From NCBI GenBank assembly GCA_012517755.1, contig JAAYUH010000044.1, positions 1 to 33,989 of the forward strand: a stretch of DNA of 33,989 bases, read 5' to 3'. Below the pieces are notes generated by a model. That model saw only the letters and a list, made by a program, of their open reading frames with translations. It ran no database searches and was not told where the DNA came from. Shown here piece by piece: positions 4,484-27,347 of this stretch. Numbering within the stretch: the stretch's first letter is position 1; every line of letters begins with the position of its first letter. The stretch is from a bacterium. Its GTDB lineage: Bacteria; Caldisericota; Caldisericia; B22-G15. Made by a program: the position numbers and the translations under genes.

Positions 4484-5764
4484 CTATTTACTTCTTCTTT
4501 TGCTTTTAGATGGAATGTTGAGTTCATCTCGATACTTTGCAATTGTTCTTCTTTTAAGGTAGATTCCCTTTTTTATTAAAATTTTTTCAATTTCTGAATC
4601 TGAGTATGGCCTTTTTTTATCTTCTTTATCAACTATCTCTTTAATTAACATTTTAACTTTGGTTCCAAAAACTCCTTTTTTTACCCCCTCTTTTCCAAGT
4701 AAAAATTTAAATGGTAATATTCCCTTTGGTGTATCAATATATTTTTCATTTACGATTCTTGATAGTGTAGAAATTGAAAGATTTAAATCATTTGCAATCT
4801 CTTTTAAGGTTATAATATTTAAATAACCTGAATTTAAGAAAAAATCTTTTTGTTTATTTACAAGATATTCAGCAACTTTCAAAACCTTTTCCTGTCTTTC
4901 AAGTAACAAATATATAAGATCTTTTGCATCTTTTACTTTATTTTTAAAAAATTCCCTCTCCTCTTTTGTTAATTCATAAATTCTTGATTTCATATCGTTA
5001 TAAAGATTTTCATTGAATTTTACTTTTGGAAAAATTTTGTCATTGTAATAAACTCTTAACTCTTTATTTTCAATTTTTAAATAGACCTCTGGTGTTATGT
5101 ACATATTAATACTTTTCTCAAGAATATGAGATGGATAAATATATGCTTTTTCTAATTTTTTGTAATATTCCTGATTTATTTCTTGTCCTTTAAGTAATTT
5201 ATCTATAACATTTTCATATTCTTCAATATCATCTTTTTTGATTTCATTTTCTCTTAATAATTGAATAATTATGCACTCTTTAATATCTTTAGCAAATACT
5301 CCAGGTGGATGCATCTCATTTTTTAAAATTTCAAGAACTCTGTTTATCTCTTTTTTATTTTTTTTAATTTGATTTGAAATCAAATCTATTGAAATATTTA
5401 AAAAACCATTATCATCTATATTTCCAATCAAATAATGAGCAATCTCTTTTTCATCTTGATTAAAATCAAAAAGCATTATCTGTTCTTCAAGGTAATCTTT
5501 TAAAGTTTTTTCTTCCTTAATTAAAGATTCAAAAAGTTGGTAGTTTCCTTTATCCTCATTATCAAAATCTTCTAAACCAGGAATTGTATCAAATTTATTA
5601 TCTTCAAGTTCGATAAAAGGATTTTCCTCCCATCGAGATTCAATGAGTTCTCTCAAATCTAAAATTGGGTATTGAAAAATAGTCATCAATTGGAAAAGAT
5701 TCTGTCTTAAATATAGATTTTCTGTTATTGAAATAGTTGGTCTTAATTCATTTCTATTCTTCAT
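4484..5764 (-). CDS. rpoN: RNA polymerase sigma-54 factor
   Basis: Region I-like LRQNLFQLMTIFQYPILDLRELIESRWEENPFIE and C-terminal RpoN box LKRRTIAKYRDELNIPSKSKRR. Confidence 0.95.
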   Translation of the reverse strand: MKNRNELRPTISITENLYLRQNLFQLMTIFQYPILDLRELIESRWEENPFIELEDNKFDTIPGLEDFDNEDKGNYQLFESLIKEEKTLKDYLEEQIMLFDFNQDEKEIAHYLIGNIDDNGFLNISIDLISNQIKKNKKEINRVLEILKNEMHPPGVFAKDIKECIIIQLLRENEIKKDDIEEYENVIDKLLKGQEINQEYYKKLEKAYIYPSHILEKSINMYITPEVYLKIENKELRVYYNDKIFPKVKFNENLYNDMKSRIYELTKEEREFFKNKVKDAKDLIYLLLERQEKVLKVAEYLVNKQKDFFLNSGYLNIITLKEIANDLNLSISTLSRIVNEKYIDTPKGILPFKFLLGKEGVKKGVFGTKVKMLIKEIVDKEDKKRPYSDSEIEKILIKKGIYLKRRTIAKYRDELNIPSKSKRRSK

Positions 5765-6665
5765 TTATAAACCTCTCTTTTAATTTAATGATCCTTCTTA
5801 ATCTATGATTTACACATGATTTAGAAACTCCCATTTTTATAGCAAGTTCATTCAAACTTAAATAAGGATATTTCATTCTTAAATCTATTGTTTCTTTTAA
5901 TGATGGAGATAAAATTTTTATTAAATCATTCTTTTTTAAATAAATTATAGCATCTTTTGTCTTTAAATATGCATCTATCGTTTTCTTAAGATTTTTCATC
6001 TCTAAATTTACATTCTTAGTTAGTTTATTTCTTATATCTTTTATAATTGTATTTTCTAAAACTTGTATATATGAACCTGATGCACCCAAAAAAAGTAAGA
6101 ATTCTTTAATACTCTCTCTATCCTGTAAATATAATATTATATAATTTTTCCTATCTCTATCCTTAAAATTAAAATGCATAATTTTTAAGATTTCAAATAT
6201 TTCAAATATCGATGATTCTTTTTGAAATCTTAATTCAAGATAATAACCTTTTTTTGGGTCTCTAACAACTCCAGAGGCTAAAAAAGCACCTCTTATAAAT
6301 GATTTGATATCTCCTTCACTTTTAGGTCTAAAATGAACTTTTAAATCATTTTCATCTATTATTTTTAAATTTAACAAATCTTTTAATAGTATATTAAATT
6401 CTATTTCAAAATATTTTCTTCCTTTTTTTTCAATAATTTTTAGAGATTTATTAAATCCAGCTATTTTTAATAATTTTATGACTCTTCTTGCTATTTCAGG
6501 GGATGAAAGTGTAAAATTTATTTTAGTTTTTTCTTTAGTGATTATTATTTTACCAATTGATAAAAGAAATCCCTGAATTTCTGATAATGCTTCATCAGGT
6601 TTATTTATATCTATTTTCAATAAATCTCTCTTTACAATTTGTGTAAAGTAATCTATTTTTTCCAC
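5754..6665 (-). CDS. whiA: WhiA family DNA-binding protein (LAGLIDADG-like plus HTH)
   Basis: FIRGAFLASGVVRDPKKGYYLELRF, C-terminal LSLNELAIKMGVSKSCVNHRLRRI; adjacent to yvcK and rapZ. Confidence 0.92.
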   Translation of the reverse strand: MEKIDYFTQIVKRDLLKIDINKPDEALSEIQGFLLSIGKIIITKEKTKINFTLSSPEIARRVIKLLKIAGFNKSLKIIEKKGRKYFEIEFNILLKDLLNLKIIDENDLKVHFRPKSEGDIKSFIRGAFLASGVVRDPKKGYYLELRFQKESSIFEIFEILKIMHFNFKDRDRKNYIILYLQDRESIKEFLLFLGASGSYIQVLENTIIKDIRNKLTKNVNLEMKNLKKTIDAYLKTKDAIIYLKKNDLIKILSPSLKETIDLRMKYPYLSLNELAIKMGVSKSCVNHRLRRIIKLKERFINEE

Positions 6666-7969
6666 TTTAACATATCTTTAAGTAGATCTCTTATTTTTAA
6701 ATAATTGTGTCTTAAATATCCATTCTCAACAGCAACAAGGTTATCTTTTATAATTTTTAATCCTAATTTTTTTAAATTTTCTTCATCTACTTCAACAGGA
6801 TAAGAACCTACTTTCTTATACTTATCTAAATAGTATTCTCCTATTTTTCCATTATTAACAATAATATAATCAAAAATATTTTCTCCTGTATATTCATAAA
6901 TTTTTTGTACATGCATTGAGGCTGTAAAATCGTCTGTCTCCCCCTTTTCTGTCATTAAATTCAAAATATAGATCTTTTTAGCTTTTGACTTTTTTATAGA
7001 TTCAACTACTGCTGGAAATAGAAGTGGAGGAATTATTGAAGTATACAAACTTCCTGGACCTATGATTATTAACTCTGAAGTTTCAATCTCATACAAAACC
7101 TCAAATGCTGGTTTTGCATAAAATGGCTCAAGTGAAATTTTTTTAATTTTTTTACCTCTATTTCTTATATTAGTTTCACCTAAAGCAACTTCTCCATCTT
7201 CAAATTCTCCTCTTAAAGTGATTATACTTTCTGAGACAGGTAAAACTTTACCAGATAAATTTAAAGTTTCCTCTAATTTTGTTATTCCATAAATCAAGCT
7301 ATCCTTTAATTTTATTGAACCTGCAATTATTAAATTACCAATTGAATGCCCTTGTAGAGTTTCTCCTTCTTTAAATCTATATTGGAAAAGATCTTTTAAG
7401 AATTCCTCGCTTTCTGAAAGTGCGATTATACAGTTTCTCAAATCACCAGGAGGTGGAATTCCAAGTTCTTCTCTCAATTTTCCAGAACTTCCCCCATCAT
7501 CTGTGACAGTAACTATTGCAACTGGATAAAATGGATACTCTTTTAGACCTCTTAAAATTGTTGAAAGACCAGTTCCTCCACCACAAGCAACTACTTTTTT
7601 TACCTTACTCTTGAATCTATAATTATGAACAATATTTACAACTTCATTTCTTTTTTCTTTTAGAAGTGCAGTAAAAAGTGAGTTCATAAGTTTCGAAAAT
7701 CCAAAAACTATAAGAAAAATACCTAATAACATATACAGTAAAGCAATCAATCTTGTTAGCCATATTGGGAATTTATAATTTCCTTTCATAAAAATTATTA
7801 TGTAATCTATAATATATCTCTTAATTATACCCAATCTTGTGAAGTCAAGAATAACCATTAATCCAAGTAGTAAAATTATTAAGCCAATTATCATAAGGAG
7901 AATCCATCTCTTTATATTCATTCCAGGGTATAACCATTTAAAAAAACGTTTTATTTTGTCTTTATTCAT
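6653..7969 (-). CDS. yvcK: YvcK/CofD-like gluconeogenesis factor with N-terminal transmembrane segments
   Basis: VVACGGGTGLSTILRGLKEYP, VTDDGGSSGKLREELGIPPPGDLRNCI; two hydrophobic segments in the first ~100 residues. Confidence 0.93.
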   Translation of the reverse strand: MNKDKIKRFFKWLYPGMNIKRWILLMIIGLIILLLGLMVILDFTRLGIIKRYIIDYIIIFMKGNYKFPIWLTRLIALLYMLLGIFLIVFGFSKLMNSLFTALLKEKRNEVVNIVHNYRFKSKVKKVVACGGGTGLSTILRGLKEYPFYPVAIVTVTDDGGSSGKLREELGIPPPGDLRNCIIALSESEEFLKDLFQYRFKEGETLQGHSIGNLIIAGSIKLKDSLIYGITKLEETLNLSGKVLPVSESIITLRGEFEDGEVALGETNIRNRGKKIKKISLEPFYAKPAFEVLYEIETSELIIIGPGSLYTSIIPPLLFPAVVESIKKSKAKKIYILNLMTEKGETDDFTASMHVQKIYEYTGENIFDYIIVNNGKIGEYYLDKYKKVGSYPVEVDEENLKKLGLKIIKDNLVAVENGYLRHNYLKIRDLLKDMLKWKK

Positions 7970-8829
7970 TTCCTTATGTCTCTATGAAATATTGTACATC
8001 TAAATCCATTCTTTTCCAAAAAATTTTTAGTTTCCTCTGCAATAACTACAGAACGATGTCTTCCTCCTGTACATCCAAAGGATATTATAAGAGAACTTTT
8101 TCCTTCATTTATATATTGAGGTATGAGAAACAAAATTAAATCTTTAAATCTAATTAAAAATCCTTTTGTTGTGTCATTAGATAAAACAAAATTTTTTACT
8201 TCTTCATCTAAACCTGTAGTGTTTTTCAAATTATCCATATAAAATGGATTTGGTAAAAATCTCACATCAAACATTAAATCAGAATCTAAAGGTATTCCAT
8301 ATTTATATCCAAATGAAATTATTGTAATCGAGATTAAATTACTTTTTTCCTCTTTTAATATTTCAACAATTCTACTTTTTAAATCTGAAAGTTTCATTTC
8401 AGTAGTATCAATTACAATATCACTAATCTCCTTTATTGGTTTTAACATATCTTTCTCAATTTTTATTGATGAACTCAATCCTTCTTCACTATATAAAGGA
8501 TGTTTTCTTCTTGTTTCTTTATATCTTTTTATAAGTATCTCTTCATTAGCATCAAGAAAAATAATAAAAGGATTTATCCCTTTTTTATTAATATCTTTTA
8601 TTATCTCTGGAAAATTTATATCAAAATCCTTTTCTCTTATATCAAGAGTTATAGCAACTTTATTTACATTTGAAATTCCTTTTTTAAAAATCTCAACAAA
8701 TTTTTCTATTAAATTTAATGGAAGATTATCTATACAAAAATATCCAATATCCTCAAGAAACTCAGAAGCTTTAGTTTTACCTGCTCCTGAAATACCTGTT
8801 ATGATAACAAAATTTTTATTTTTTTCCAT
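7966..8829 (-). CDS. rapZ: RapZ/YvcJ family nucleotide-binding protein
   Basis: GISGAGKTKASEFLEDIGYFCIDNLP, DVRFLPNPFY, SFGCTGGRHRSV. Confidence 0.95.
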   Translation of the reverse strand: MEKNKNFVIITGISGAGKTKASEFLEDIGYFCIDNLPLNLIEKFVEIFKKGISNVNKVAITLDIREKDFDINFPEIIKDINKKGINPFIIFLDANEEILIKRYKETRRKHPLYSEEGLSSSIKIEKDMLKPIKEISDIVIDTTEMKLSDLKSRIVEILKEEKSNLISITIISFGYKYGIPLDSDLMFDVRFLPNPFYMDNLKNTTGLDEEVKNFVLSNDTTKGFLIRFKDLILFLIPQYINEGKSSLIISFGCTGGRHRSVVIAEETKNFLEKNGFRCTIFHRDIRK

Positions 8830-9292: not shown

Positions 9293-9547
9293 ATGAAAAA
9301 AGTTCTTATCAAAGTAAAAAGCGTTAAAGAGTTATGTGAAGCAAAATATAAAGTAGGAGACAGTTGGGAAATTAAAAATAATGTATTTATACCTGAAAAT
9401 TTTTGTATGCACGCTTTTTATGTTTTATATCCTTGGATTCAAACATTAAGGATGGGTGGAGAGATTCCCTGGAACATAAATGGGGAAATAGAAGTTCCCT
9501 GTATTGATAAAGACAATATGGTTATTTTTTCTTTGAAATGTGAATGA
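9293..9547 (+). CDS. TIGR04076-like small conserved protein
   Basis: Family-like pattern KYKVGDSWEI ... FCMHAFYVLYPWIQTLRMGGEIPW ... VPCIDKDNMVIFSLKC. Confidence 0.7.
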   Translation: MKKVLIKVKSVKELCEAKYKVGDSWEIKNNVFIPENFCMHAFYVLYPWIQTLRMGGEIPWNINGEIEVPCIDKDNMVIFSLKCE

Positions 9548-11243
9548 TAAAATGAAAAGTGACATTGAAATAAACAGAGAATACAAACCAAAAAAAATTG
9601 ATGAAATTGCTGAATTATTAAAAATTAAAGAAAAATATTTAATTAAATATGGTGATTATATTGCTAAAATTAAGTTAGATTTATTAGATGAAATCGAAAA
9701 AAACGAAAATGGAAAATATATTCTTATAACAGGTATAACACCGACACCTTTAGGAGAAGGAAAAACAACAACAACTGTTGGTTTAGGACAGGCATTTGCA
9801 AAACTAAAGAAAAAAGGATTAATTTCTATAAGACAACCATCATTAGGTCCAATTTTTGGAATTAAAGGTGGTGCACATGGTGGTGGTTATTCGCAGGTCT
9901 ATCCAATGGATGAATTTAATCTTCATTTCACAGGAGATAACTATGCAGTTTATACAGCACACAATTTACTCGTATCATTTTTATATAACTCTATTTATCA
10001 TAAAAATCCACTTAATATAGATTTAAATAGTATATCAATCAAAAGAGTTATGGATATCTCTGATAGAGGTTTAAGAAAAATTATTGCTGGTGTTTTTGAT
10101 AATTATCTTCCTCATGAAAGTGGTTTTGAAATAACATCTGCATCAGAGATAATGGCAATTTTATCTCTATCGAGAAGTTTAAAAGAGTTGAGAGAAAAAT
10201 TAGGAAACATTATTGTTGGTTTTAGATATGATAAAAAACCTGTTTTTTCTAATGATTTAGAGGTCGCTGGTTCCTTAACAGCATTAACCAAAAATGCTTT
10301 GATGCCAAATTTAATACAAACAATAGAAGGAACACCTGTTTTTGTCCATACAGGACCATTTGGAAACATAGCACATGGTAACTCATCAATAATTGCTGAT
10401 TTGATTGGAATTAAAATTTCTGATTATTTGATAACAGAGGCTGGATTTGGAACTGATCTTGGTGCTGAAAAATTTTTCAATATAAAATGTAGATACTCTG
10501 AGTTAAAACCAGATATTGCAGTAATTGTAGTTAGTTTAAGATCTTTGAAAATGCATGGAGGAGTTGGAAAAATATCTCCAGGTAAACCTTTACCAAAAGA
10601 GATATTAGAAAAAAATTTAGATGCTATAAAAGTTGGCTCTGAAAATTTAAAAAAACATATTGAGAATATAAAAATTCATGGAATAAAAGTGATTGTAAAT
10701 CTAAACTATTTTGAATGTGATGATGAAGATGAGATAAATTTGTTAAGGAAAATTTCATTAGAATATGGAAGTGATGACTTCGTTGTCTCTGAGGTTTATT
10801 CAAAAGGTGGTGAAGGAGGAGTTGATCTTGCTAAATCAATAATTAAATTGACAGAAAAAAAGGAAGATAACTTCAAATTTCTATATCCTCTCGATATGTC
10901 AATAAAAGATAAAATAAAAACAATTGCAACAAAAATTTATGGTGCTAAAGATGTTAAATTTTCAAATGAAGCAATAAATAAAATTGAACTTTTAGAATCT
11001 CTTGGATTTTCTAATCTTCCAATCTGTATGGCAAAAACACATTTATCTTTATCTCATGATTCTAAATTAAAAGGCAGGCCAGACAATTTTATCCTTCCAA
11101 TTGATAATATTAAAATTTCAAATGGTGCAGGGTTCATTGTTACATATTCTGGAGAGATAAGTACAATGCCATCTTTACCATCAAATCCAATTGGAAAATA
11201 TATAGATATTGATAATGATGGAAATATTTATGGATTGAAATAA
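9540..11243 (+). CDS. fhs: Formate-tetrahydrofolate ligase
   Basis: TGITPTPLGEGKTTTTVGLGQAF, RQPSLGPIFGIKGGAHGGGYSQV, TEAGFGTDLGAEKFFNIKCR. GTG start at 9540 or ATG at 9552. Confidence 0.97.
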   Translation: MNDKMKSDIEINREYKPKKIDEIAELLKIKEKYLIKYGDYIAKIKLDLLDEIEKNENGKYILITGITPTPLGEGKTTTTVGLGQAFAKLKKKGLISIRQPSLGPIFGIKGGAHGGGYSQVYPMDEFNLHFTGDNYAVYTAHNLLVSFLYNSIYHKNPLNIDLNSISIKRVMDISDRGLRKIIAGVFDNYLPHESGFEITSASEIMAILSLSRSLKELREKLGNIIVGFRYDKKPVFSNDLEVAGSLTALTKNALMPNLIQTIEGTPVFVHTGPFGNIAHGNSSIIADLIGIKISDYLITEAGFGTDLGAEKFFNIKCRYSELKPDIAVIVVSLRSLKMHGGVGKISPGKPLPKEILEKNLDAIKVGSENLKKHIENIKIHGIKVIVNLNYFECDDEDEINLLRKISLEYGSDDFVVSEVYSKGGEGGVDLAKSIIKLTEKKEDNFKFLYPLDMSIKDKIKTIATKIYGAKDVKFSNEAINKIELLESLGFSNLPICMAKTHLSLSHDSKLKGRPDNFILPIDNIKISNGAGFIVTYSGEISTMPSLPSNPIGKYIDIDNDGNIYGLK

Positions 11244-12094
11244 TGGGTGAAATAATAGACATAAAGCCACTTAAAGATAAAATTTTAAATGAAATAAAAA
11301 ATTTAATATTAAAAAATAATTTTAATAAAAAAATTGCTTTTCTTATTTTTTCAGATAGCTTTGATGCAAAAATTTTTTTGAATGAACTTAAGAATCTTTT
11401 TGATGAGCTTACATTAAAATATGAAGAGTTAAATCTTATAGATGAAAAAGAAGAGGATATTATAAAAATTTTGGATAGATTAAATAATAATTGTGAGATA
11501 AATGGTATATTACCAATAAGGCCTATACCAAAAAATATTGATGAACTTTCAATTTATTCGACAATAAAACCTGAAAAAGATATAGATTGTTTGAGTCTAA
11601 TAAATCTCGGTAAACTTTTTTCTTTTAAACCAAGTTTTATACCTTCAGTAGTTAATGCATCTTTTGAAATATTAAAATATTATATTTTGGAAAAATTCAA
11701 TAATCCTGATTATTTGTCTGGGAAAACTGCTGTTATAGTTGGAAGAAGTATCAATACCGGAAGACCTTTATATATTCTTTCTCTAATGAACAACATGATT
11801 CCAATAAATTTACACTCCAAGGTTAATAATTTGGAAAAATTTATAAAACTTGGTGATATTGTTTTTGCATGTTGTGGAGTTCCAGAACTTATCAAGGGTT
11901 ATATGATAAAGGAGAACTCTATAATAATAGATATTGGAATAAACAAATCAAAAAATAATGAGATAGTTGGAGATGTAGATATAAAAAGTGTTTTAGAAAA
12001 AGTAATGGCAGTGACACCAGTACCAAATGGAGTTGGAGAAATTACAAAATTGATGATTGTAAAAAATTACCTTTTAACATATAGCTTTATCTGA
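11243..12094 (+). CDS. folD: Divergent methylene-tetrahydrofolate dehydrogenase (FolD family); cyclohydrolase activity doubtful
   Basis: GILPIRPIPKNIDE, KPEKDID, VVGRSINTGRPL-like VIVGRSINTGRP, IDIGINKSKNNEIVGDVD, AVTPVPNGVGEIT; adjacent to fhs. Confidence 0.88.
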   Translation: MGEIIDIKPLKDKILNEIKNLILKNNFNKKIAFLIFSDSFDAKIFLNELKNLFDELTLKYEELNLIDEKEEDIIKILDRLNNNCEINGILPIRPIPKNIDELSIYSTIKPEKDIDCLSLINLGKLFSFKPSFIPSVVNASFEILKYYILEKFNNPDYLSGKTAVIVGRSINTGRPLYILSLMNNMIPINLHSKVNNLEKFIKLGDIVFACCGVPELIKGYMIKENSIIIDIGINKSKNNEIVGDVDIKSVLEKVMAVTPVPNGVGEITKLMIVKNYLLTYSFI

Positions 12095-17968: not shown

Positions 17969-19249
17969 TTATTTTAACATATTTGATTCATATTTAAAAC
18001 TATCTCTTAATTCTTTATATAGTGGAAATTCCTCACATAAACTCTTTACCTCTTTTATCACGCTTTCTTGAATAGATTCATCAGATGGATTTTTTAAAAT
18101 TTTAGCAATTAATTTTCCTATAATTTCCATTTGTTCTTCTCCCATACCTCTTGTTGTTAATGCTGGAGTTCCAAGTCTTATTCCACTTGAAACAAAAGGT
18201 TTTTCAGGATCATATGGAATTGTATTTTTATTAACTGTTATATTGACTTTACCTAATAAATTTTCAGCGTTTTTACCAGTGATTTTAAATGGTCTTAAAT
18301 CTACAAGCATAAGGTGAGTATCTGTTCCATCTGATACCAATCTTGCTCCTTCATTTTTCAATGTTTCAGCTAATTTTTTAGCATTTTTAACAATTTTTTG
18401 TTGGTAAGTTTTAAACTCCTCACTCATTGCTTCTTTAAAGCATACAGCCTTTGCAGCAATCACATGCATAAGTGGACCACCCTGTATTCCAGGAAAAACA
18501 TTTTTATCAAGATCTTTTTTATAAATCTCTTTTGTTAAAATAAATGCTCCTCTTGGTCCTCTTAAGGTTTTATGAGTTGTTGAAGTTATAAAATCTGCAG
18601 AATTTATTGGTGTTGGATGTAAACCTGTAGCAACAAGACCAGCAATATGAGCAATATCTGCCATCAAATAGGAATTACTCTCATTTGCTATTTCTCTGAA
18701 TTTTTCAAAATCAATTTTCCTTGGATATGCAGAATATCCTGTAACAATAACTTTTGGTTTTTCTTTCAAAGCAAGTTCTCTTACCAAATTAAAATCTATT
18801 GTTTCATCATCTTTATTCACTCCGTAATAAACAACTCTAAAAAATCTGCCTGAAAAGGAAACAGGACTTCCATGTGATAGATGACCTCCATGCGAAAGTT
18901 CCATTGAAAGAATAGTATCTCCTGGGTTTAAAACTGTAAAATATACAGCCATATTTGCCTGTGTACCAGAATGTGGTTGAACATTTGCATGTTCTGCATT
19001 AAAAAGTTTTTTTACTCTATCTATTGCAAGTTGCTCTGCAACATCAACAAATTCACAACCTCCATAATATCTTTTTCCTGGATACCCTTCTGCATATTTG
19101 TTTGTTAAAGGAGAACCAAGAGCAGAAAGTACTGCGGGGCTAACAAAATTTTCTGAAGCAATTAGTTCAAGATTGTTGTGTTGCCTTTCAATCTCATTGT
19201 ATATTGCTAAAAAAACTTCTGGGTCTGTTTTTCTTAAGTTTTCAATCAT
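17969..19249 (-). CDS. glyA: Serine hydroxymethyltransferase
   Basis: [37 protein letters not shown] Lys in [23 protein letters not shown]. Confidence 0.98.
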
Positions 19250-26610: not shown

Positions 26611-27210
26611 CTATTCTCCAATTATTCCATTAACAACTTTTTCAAAACTATTGTCGCACCAATTTTCTATATAATTTTTTATCTCATCAGCTTCATTTTT
26701 GACAGAATCAACAAAATTTTTATCTTTAATAGATTTTAAATTTATAATCACATTTAGATAACATGATAGAACCCCGCTTTTTAAATTTAAAATTGATACT
26801 CCGATATCAGAAATTGCATTTTTATTTCCCTTTTCTATTAAAATATTCAAAAAGGGTATAATCTCTTTTGATAATCTAATGGATTGTAAAGGAATTGAAG
26901 TTGCTCCTTTAAGAGCCTCTTCTATTTTTTGTTTTCTTATATTTTTTTCTTCATCACTATTTTTGGGTAGTTTATAAGCTTCCATCACAGAATTAAAACT
27001 TTCCTCATCTTCATAAGATAAATTTAAAAATTTATCTTTTAAATCTTTTAAATCATCAATATAATTTTCTAATCCTTTTGTTAAACCACACACCATTGCT
27101 GTAAGTGATGCTGAAAAAGATAGTAAAAGATTGCCTACACTTCCTCCTCCTGGAGTCGGAGATGGAGAAGACAACTCTTCGAGATATTTTTTAATTGATC
27201 TATCTTCCAT
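26611..27210 (-). CDS. fchA: Cyclodeaminase/cyclohydrolase family protein (FchA-like methenyl-THF cyclohydrolase)
   Basis: SSPSPTPGGGSVGNLLLSF, FNSVMEAYKLPK, EALKGATSIPL, KGNKNAISDIGV, LNVIINLKSIKD. Track start 27264; ATG 27210 follows AGGAGG. Confidence 0.85.
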   Translation of the reverse strand: MEDRSIKKYLEELSSPSPTPGGGSVGNLLLSFSASLTAMVCGLTKGLENYIDDLKDLKDKFLNLSYEDEESFNSVMEAYKLPKNSDEEKNIRKQKIEEALKGATSIPLQSIRLSKEIIPFLNILIEKGNKNAISDIGVSILNLKSGVLSCYLNVIINLKSIKDKNFVDSVKNEADEIKNYIENWCDNSFEKVVNGIIGE

Positions 27211-27347
27211 AAATCCTCCTAAATAGGTAATAAAAAATTCAATCATATTATAATATAGAATCAAAATTATTATTAAAATTAAAAATAATTATTTTTATAT
27301 TGATTTATTGTGATAAAATATCTTTAGAATATTTTAGGAGGTGAATA

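Follow-up and report, generated by a model that had tools for sequence, protein, structure and literature searches.

We favor, with moderate confidence, the reading that the FolD homologue encoded in the window (the whole stretch of 33,989 nucleotides analyzed here) is a dehydrogenase-only enzyme whose gene forms a unit with fhs, while the cyclohydrolase step is carried out by a stand-alone protein of the FTCD_C family. The window FolD would interconvert 5,10-methylene-THF and 5,10-methenyl-THF with NAD(P) but would not hydrolyze methenyl-THF, since the Lys required for this step (K54 in E. coli) is replaced by Leu and the Gln holding this Lys in position (Q98) by Ile. The FTCD_C/FchA-like protein would then interconvert methenyl-THF and 10-formyl-THF, Fhs would produce 10-formyl-THF from formate, THF and ATP, and GlyA would interconvert methylene-THF and serine, linking the unit to serine and glycine.

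The folD gene is located on the plus strand at positions 11243 to 12094 and, starting from an ATG at 11243, encodes a protein of 283 amino acids with both FolD domains in order (PF00763, 56.4 bits, gathering threshold 32.8; PF02882, 132.7 bits, gathering threshold 27). It is directly preceded by fhs, encoding formate--tetrahydrofolate ligase (9540 to 11243, plus strand; NF010030, 737.6 bits, cut-off 652), with one base shared between the fhs stop codon and the start codon of folD. The same adjacency is seen in two relatives of the same genus (G002 and G003) and one of the same family (G004). The window also contains glyA for serine hydroxymethyltransferase (17969 to 19249, minus strand; NF000586, 635.4 bits), an enzyme that supplies or uses 5,10-methylene-THF, the substrate of FolD.

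Active-site residues, constraint and fold of the window FolD

Residue positions were assigned in a MAFFT alignment containing E. coli K-12 FolD (NC_000913) and about 70 further FolD rows, including those of relatives. Here, E. coli Y50, K54 and Q98 correspond to F45, L49 and I92, confirming the first-pass annotation, which had placed a Phe at the catalytic Tyr, a Leu at the catalytic Lys and an Ile at the conserved Gln. Both the Lys of the YxxxK motif and the Gln that characterize bifunctional FolDs are thus missing. A phmmer comparison with human MTHFD1, in which the helix aligns without gaps, agrees with this assignment, as Y52, K56 and Q100 of the human protein are replaced by F, L and I. 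E. coli D121 is retained as D115, and the GRS and GRP motifs as well as the Rossmann motifs are kept, as had been stated for the Asp of KDxD and the VGRS..GRP segment. Two further changes listed at that stage, PCTP to PSVV and TPVPGGVGPMT to TPVPNGVGEIT, are real but not diagnostic, since FolDs of the same class that keep K54 carry PATP, PNTP or PSTP at the first motif and GSLT or GALT in place of GPMT. The F/L/I set at positions 50, 54 and 98 is common to G002, G003 and G004. Against the NCBIfam equivalogs for bifunctional FolD the window protein scored 164.4 bits at best, in comparison to a cut-off of 392, which is weak evidence as these cut-offs are clade-specific.

Mutational and structural studies of other FolDs describe the role of the changed residues. 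The E. coli mutant K54N shows about 19% dehydrogenase activity and no detectable cyclohydrolase activity, in agreement with the earlier claim that ties the Lys to cyclohydrolase function, and the mutant Q98H shows about 8% dehydrogenase and about 1% cyclohydrolase activity (PMC5688156). In P. aeruginosa FolD, Gln98 positions the Lys, Asp121 positions the pterin and Tyr50 holds the substrate (PMC3338484). Very low activity was reported for E. coli Tyr50 mutants, and loss of affinity for the substrate for silkworm MTHFD mutated at Tyr49 (PMC6443876). From these residue changes, cyclohydrolase activity is expected to be lost and dehydrogenase activity to be kept or reduced. Retention of the dehydrogenase is likely, albeit short of certain, because Y50F comes in addition to the other changes. 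A Phe at position 50 retains the aromatic ring and lacks the hydroxyl group.

The window FolD carries a Lys (K50) directly after the lost position, which might suggest that it is still bifunctional by means of another residue. We consider this very improbable: K50 is replaced by Asn in G002 and G003 and by Val in G004, Q98 is lost as well, and the E. coli enzyme has no cyclohydrolase activity once K54 is deleted or changed, even though a nearby Lys remains (PMC5688156). The lack of conservation of K50 in these three relatives also rules out a one-residue shift of the alignment that would place it at the catalytic position, and the alignment check for a Lys at this site consequently found none.

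An AlphaFold2 model of the window protein (pLDDT 96.7) adopts the FolD fold, in line with the structural check against E. coli FolD proposed in the first-pass annotation. Foldseek comparisons of the model with known FolD/MTHFD chains, among them E. coli FolD and human MTHFD1, resulted in TM-scores of about 0.82 to 0.92, and of about 0.84-0.91 for the entries 1b0a (E. coli) and 1a4i (human). F45 and L49 both sit in helix 40-55 of the model, equivalent to E. coli helix alpha-2. The window FolD is the sole FolD of its genome, which is scored 100% complete and in which no second FolD was found outside the window. It shares 52-60% amino-acid identity with the FolDs of G002, G003 and G004, and a dN/dS ratio of about 0.16 (0.133/0.846) was determined for folD between G002 and G003. 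Based on these two observations, the gene is maintained by purifying selection; an intact open reading frame and the same ratio rule out a pseudogene.

In a FolD tree calculated by a quick method after removal of columns 50, 54, 98 and 99, the FolDs of the four family members sit together on a long branch of their own. Descent of the family's FolD from clostridial FchA-linked FolDs, a possibility we considered, is unsupported by this placement. Both groups share an Arg after the Q98 position. The FolD of G004 (L035) additionally contains the exchange D121E, and a Glu is also found in L056 (G049), both proteins being devoid of K54. The position is otherwise a nearly invariant folate-binding Asp.

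The long branch and the exchange D121E in G004 would both fit a scenario in which the window FolD has lost or strongly reduced both activities, or has acquired a new function, and is retained for some other reason. So would the additional change of Y50, given the poor performance of the E. coli Tyr50 and silkworm Tyr49 mutants (PMC6443876), the low residual dehydrogenase activity of E. coli Q98H (PMC5688156), and a genome of the same class (G016, 94% complete) in which no full-length FolD was detected. This scenario appears improbable to us, however, as a Phe at position 50 still provides an aromatic ring for stacking on the folate, and D121, the nucleotide-binding motifs and other invariant FolD positions are kept, including P94, K112, D113, R168, S169, G173, P175, H191 and D230. 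Purifying selection on folD, and its status as the only FolD gene of the genome, located together with fhs, likewise argue for a functional dehydrogenase.

The FTCD_C protein encoded in the window

The FTCD_C family comprises the methenyl-THF cyclohydrolase FchA and formimino-THF cyclodeaminase. The window genome encodes one FTCD_C protein only, a stand-alone FTCD_C/FchA-like protein and probable methenyl-THF cyclohydrolase, on the minus strand of the window at 26611 to 27210, 14.5 kb from folD (PF04961, 179.6 bits). Translation starts at an ATG at 27210 with an AGGAGG at 27215-27220, while the open reading frame as listed begins with a TTG at 27264.

The top NCBIfam match of this protein is FchA (NF045657) with 170.6 bits, below the cut-off of 275. 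FTCD_C proteins of clostridial type whose genes neighbor folD do not reach this value either (210 and 189 bits), which means that probable true members are left out by the model. Its best match in the PDB is 7vg4, annotated as methenyl-THF cyclohydrolase, with 128.8 bits in comparison to 75.3 bits for the mammalian FTCD structure 1tt9, a preference for the FchA structure of about 53 bits. As controls, a clostridial FchA showed a preference of 60 bits (161.5 versus 101.5) and a fused cyclodeaminase one of about 15 bits (124.8 versus 110.2). Residues conserved throughout the FTCD_C family are present in the window protein. Its motif PGGGSV resembles that of fused cyclodeaminases, whereas the clostridial FchA group has PGGGGA, and an FTCD_C tree gave no firm placement of the protein with either FchA or the fused cyclodeaminases. 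Judged by these matches, the FTCD_C protein is probably the source of the methenyl-THF cyclohydrolase step in the window genome.

The genome additionally encodes HutU, a separate glutamate formimidoyltransferase and HutH, whose gene is truncated at the end of a contig. The FTCD_C protein may therefore serve as the cyclodeaminase of histidine breakdown, alone or besides a cyclohydrolase role. That one stand-alone FTCD_C performs both jobs, ending histidine degradation as cyclodeaminase and carrying out the methenyl-THF cyclohydrolase step that FolD gave up, is a possibility we advance tentatively. If true, the loss of the Lys and Gln from FolD would have been permitted by the passing of a biosynthetic step to a catabolic enzyme, and this would have happened several times in the phylum.

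The same histidine genes can also be read differently: FolD might be dehydrogenase-only with its cyclohydrolase activity not replaced at all, FTCD_C acting solely as cyclodeaminase, Fhs making the 10-formyl-THF from formate and methenyl-THF hydrolyzing spontaneously. The coupling of fhs to folD and the PGGGSV motif are consistent with this, and spontaneous hydrolysis has been invoked to explain the survival of the E. coli K54N mutant (PMC5688156). Even so, we regard it as rather unlikely, as the closest solved structure of the FTCD_C protein is an annotated cyclohydrolase, and the gene content of relatives described below also speaks against it.

5-Formyl-THF cycloligase is encoded in G002 and G003, but no gene for it was detected in the window genome or in most of the class. 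In the window genome and most of the class, the stand-alone glutamate formimidoyltransferase is present in its absence. We considered a substitution of the cycloligase by the formiminotransferase, but the presence of the cycloligase in G002 and G003 together with its lack in the window genome leaves no clear pattern.

K54 loss and FTCD_C across genomes

The co-occurrence of K54 loss and FTCD_C was followed in two samples. The first comprised 61 genomes, the window genome and its relatives, with counts restricted to genomes at least 85% complete. A stand-alone FTCD_C was present in all K54-less genomes of this class-wide sample (26/26). The nine genomes that keep K54 encode a fused FTCD only (four), no FTCD_C (two), both forms (one) or a stand-alone protein (two). 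Different families have L, M, I, Q or A in place of K54, so that the change is not private to the window family. The second sample consisted of 78 Clostridia genomes. All nine FolDs from Clostridia without FTCD_C retain both K54 and Q98, whereas K54 is missing from the majority of FolDs in genomes that encode FTCD_C, this position being mostly Q, A, V or I in the sampled Clostridia. In nine Clostridia genome pieces the FTCD_C gene adjoins the K-less folD. What had been presented in the first-pass annotation as an isolated oddity is thus widespread in the class and in Clostridia, and the probable FTCD_C partner within the same window had been missed.

On the gene level, 90 K-less FolDs occur with and two without FTCD_C, in comparison to 18 and 14 K-bearing FolDs, respectively. 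Fisher's exact test for the association gives p = 3.7e-8 but is uncorrected for phylogeny and is not taken as proof. At least six changes at K54 are required on the tree, and a phylogeny-aware pair test of the association, containing two independent supported pairs only, was not significant. The two exceptions, L065 (G061) and L068 (G064), stem from clostridial MAGs whose completeness is not known. In both, fhs directly precedes the K-less folD and FTCD_C was not detected, an arrangement that would suit a FolD whose cyclohydrolase activity is not replaced. Two relatives of about 55% completeness (G047 and G048) also have a K-less FolD with no FTCD_C detected.

Against such a lack of replacement, FTCD_C persists in K-less relatives without Fhs, namely G012, G014, G020, G033 and G049-G052, where absence of Fhs in the first four means none above the cut-off. 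A K-less FolD and FTCD_C are also encoded by G051, a genome of the same phylum that is 96% complete, and neither Fhs nor HutH, HutU or formiminotransferase was detected there, so that FTCD_C is kept in the absence of every histidine utilization and formiminotransferase gene searched for. In this genome as well as in G014 (99% complete) and G012 (93%), FTCD_C is the sole enzymatic route to 10-formyl-THF detected. These genomes argue that a stand-alone FTCD_C can act as cyclohydrolase in this phylum. Together with the changes of both K54 and Q98 in the sole FolD of the window genome and the presence of a stand-alone FTCD_C, this cross-genome pattern lends support to the dehydrogenase-only function that the earlier annotation had raised as a possibility.

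Further FolD variants were observed in both samples. G016, which has no full-length FolD, encodes Fhs and a stand-alone FTCD_C; the missing FolD reflects either an assembly gap or a real loss. A second FolD with Ala54, Phe98 and Arg99 is found in G005, G032, G044 and G042 (L052-L055), and in the quick tree these proteins group with clostridial FchA-linked FolDs, suggesting horizontal transfer. Some Clostridia encode, beside a normal FolD, short FolD-like paralogues of about 210-255 amino acids (L218 and L219 in G091, L220 and L221 in G081, L222 in G106) with weak PF02882 matches (about 68-96 bits), an Ile at position 54 and mostly KDxDNF.

Relation to known systems

A dehydrogenase-only FolD working with a separate FchA is an arrangement already known from C. 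perfringens and acetogens. In C. perfringens, FolD is reportedly a monofunctional methylene-THF dehydrogenase, with FchA supplying the cyclohydrolase and Fhs alongside (Aluri et al. 2016, Microbiology 162:145, cited in PMC7219735). The window genome belongs to a different phylum, its FTCD_C gene lies 14.5 kb away from folD, and it contains histidine-degradation genes. The window FolD also carries Y50F and Q98I. The monofunctional NAD-dependent dehydrogenase MTD1 of Saccharomyces cerevisiae carries other residues at the Lys as well as at the Gln position. The window protein resembles it in its FolD fold, in these two replacements and in the predicted dehydrogenase-only activity; MTD1, however, is eukaryotic and far more divergent. 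With the bifunctional enzymes represented by 1b0a and 1a4i, the window FolD shares the fold, D121 and the Rossmann motifs, but it lacks Y50, K54 and Q98. Acetobacterium woodii has an fhs1-fchA-folD cluster (PMC10472528), in which FchA and FolD are likewise separate and Fhs takes part in the same pathway. In that cluster fchA separates the fhs gene from folD, whereas in the window family fhs and folD are directly adjacent and FTCD_C is encoded elsewhere. A monofunctional dehydrogenase is also known from Peptostreptococcus productus (PMC6443876). What the window would add is a further case from a little-studied group in another phylum, in which Tyr is additionally changed to Phe and the partner gene is not beside folD.

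FolD is routinely annotated as bifunctional, and all NCBIfam FolD models shown for the window protein are so named. The residues at positions 54 and 98, considered alongside a genome's FTCD_C content, could provide a simple, testable rule for recognizing dehydrogenase-only FolDs, which would correct pathway models of uncultured bacteria. As binding of the FolD inhibitor carolacton to the E. coli enzyme depends on K54 (PMC5688156), the window FolD is predicted to be insensitive to this compound.

Elsewhere in the window, consecutive WhiA-like, YvcK/CofD-like and RapZ-like genes were recognized by eye on the minus strand at 5754-8829; the next gene on this strand, at 4484-5764, encodes a protein resembling sigma-54 (RpoN).
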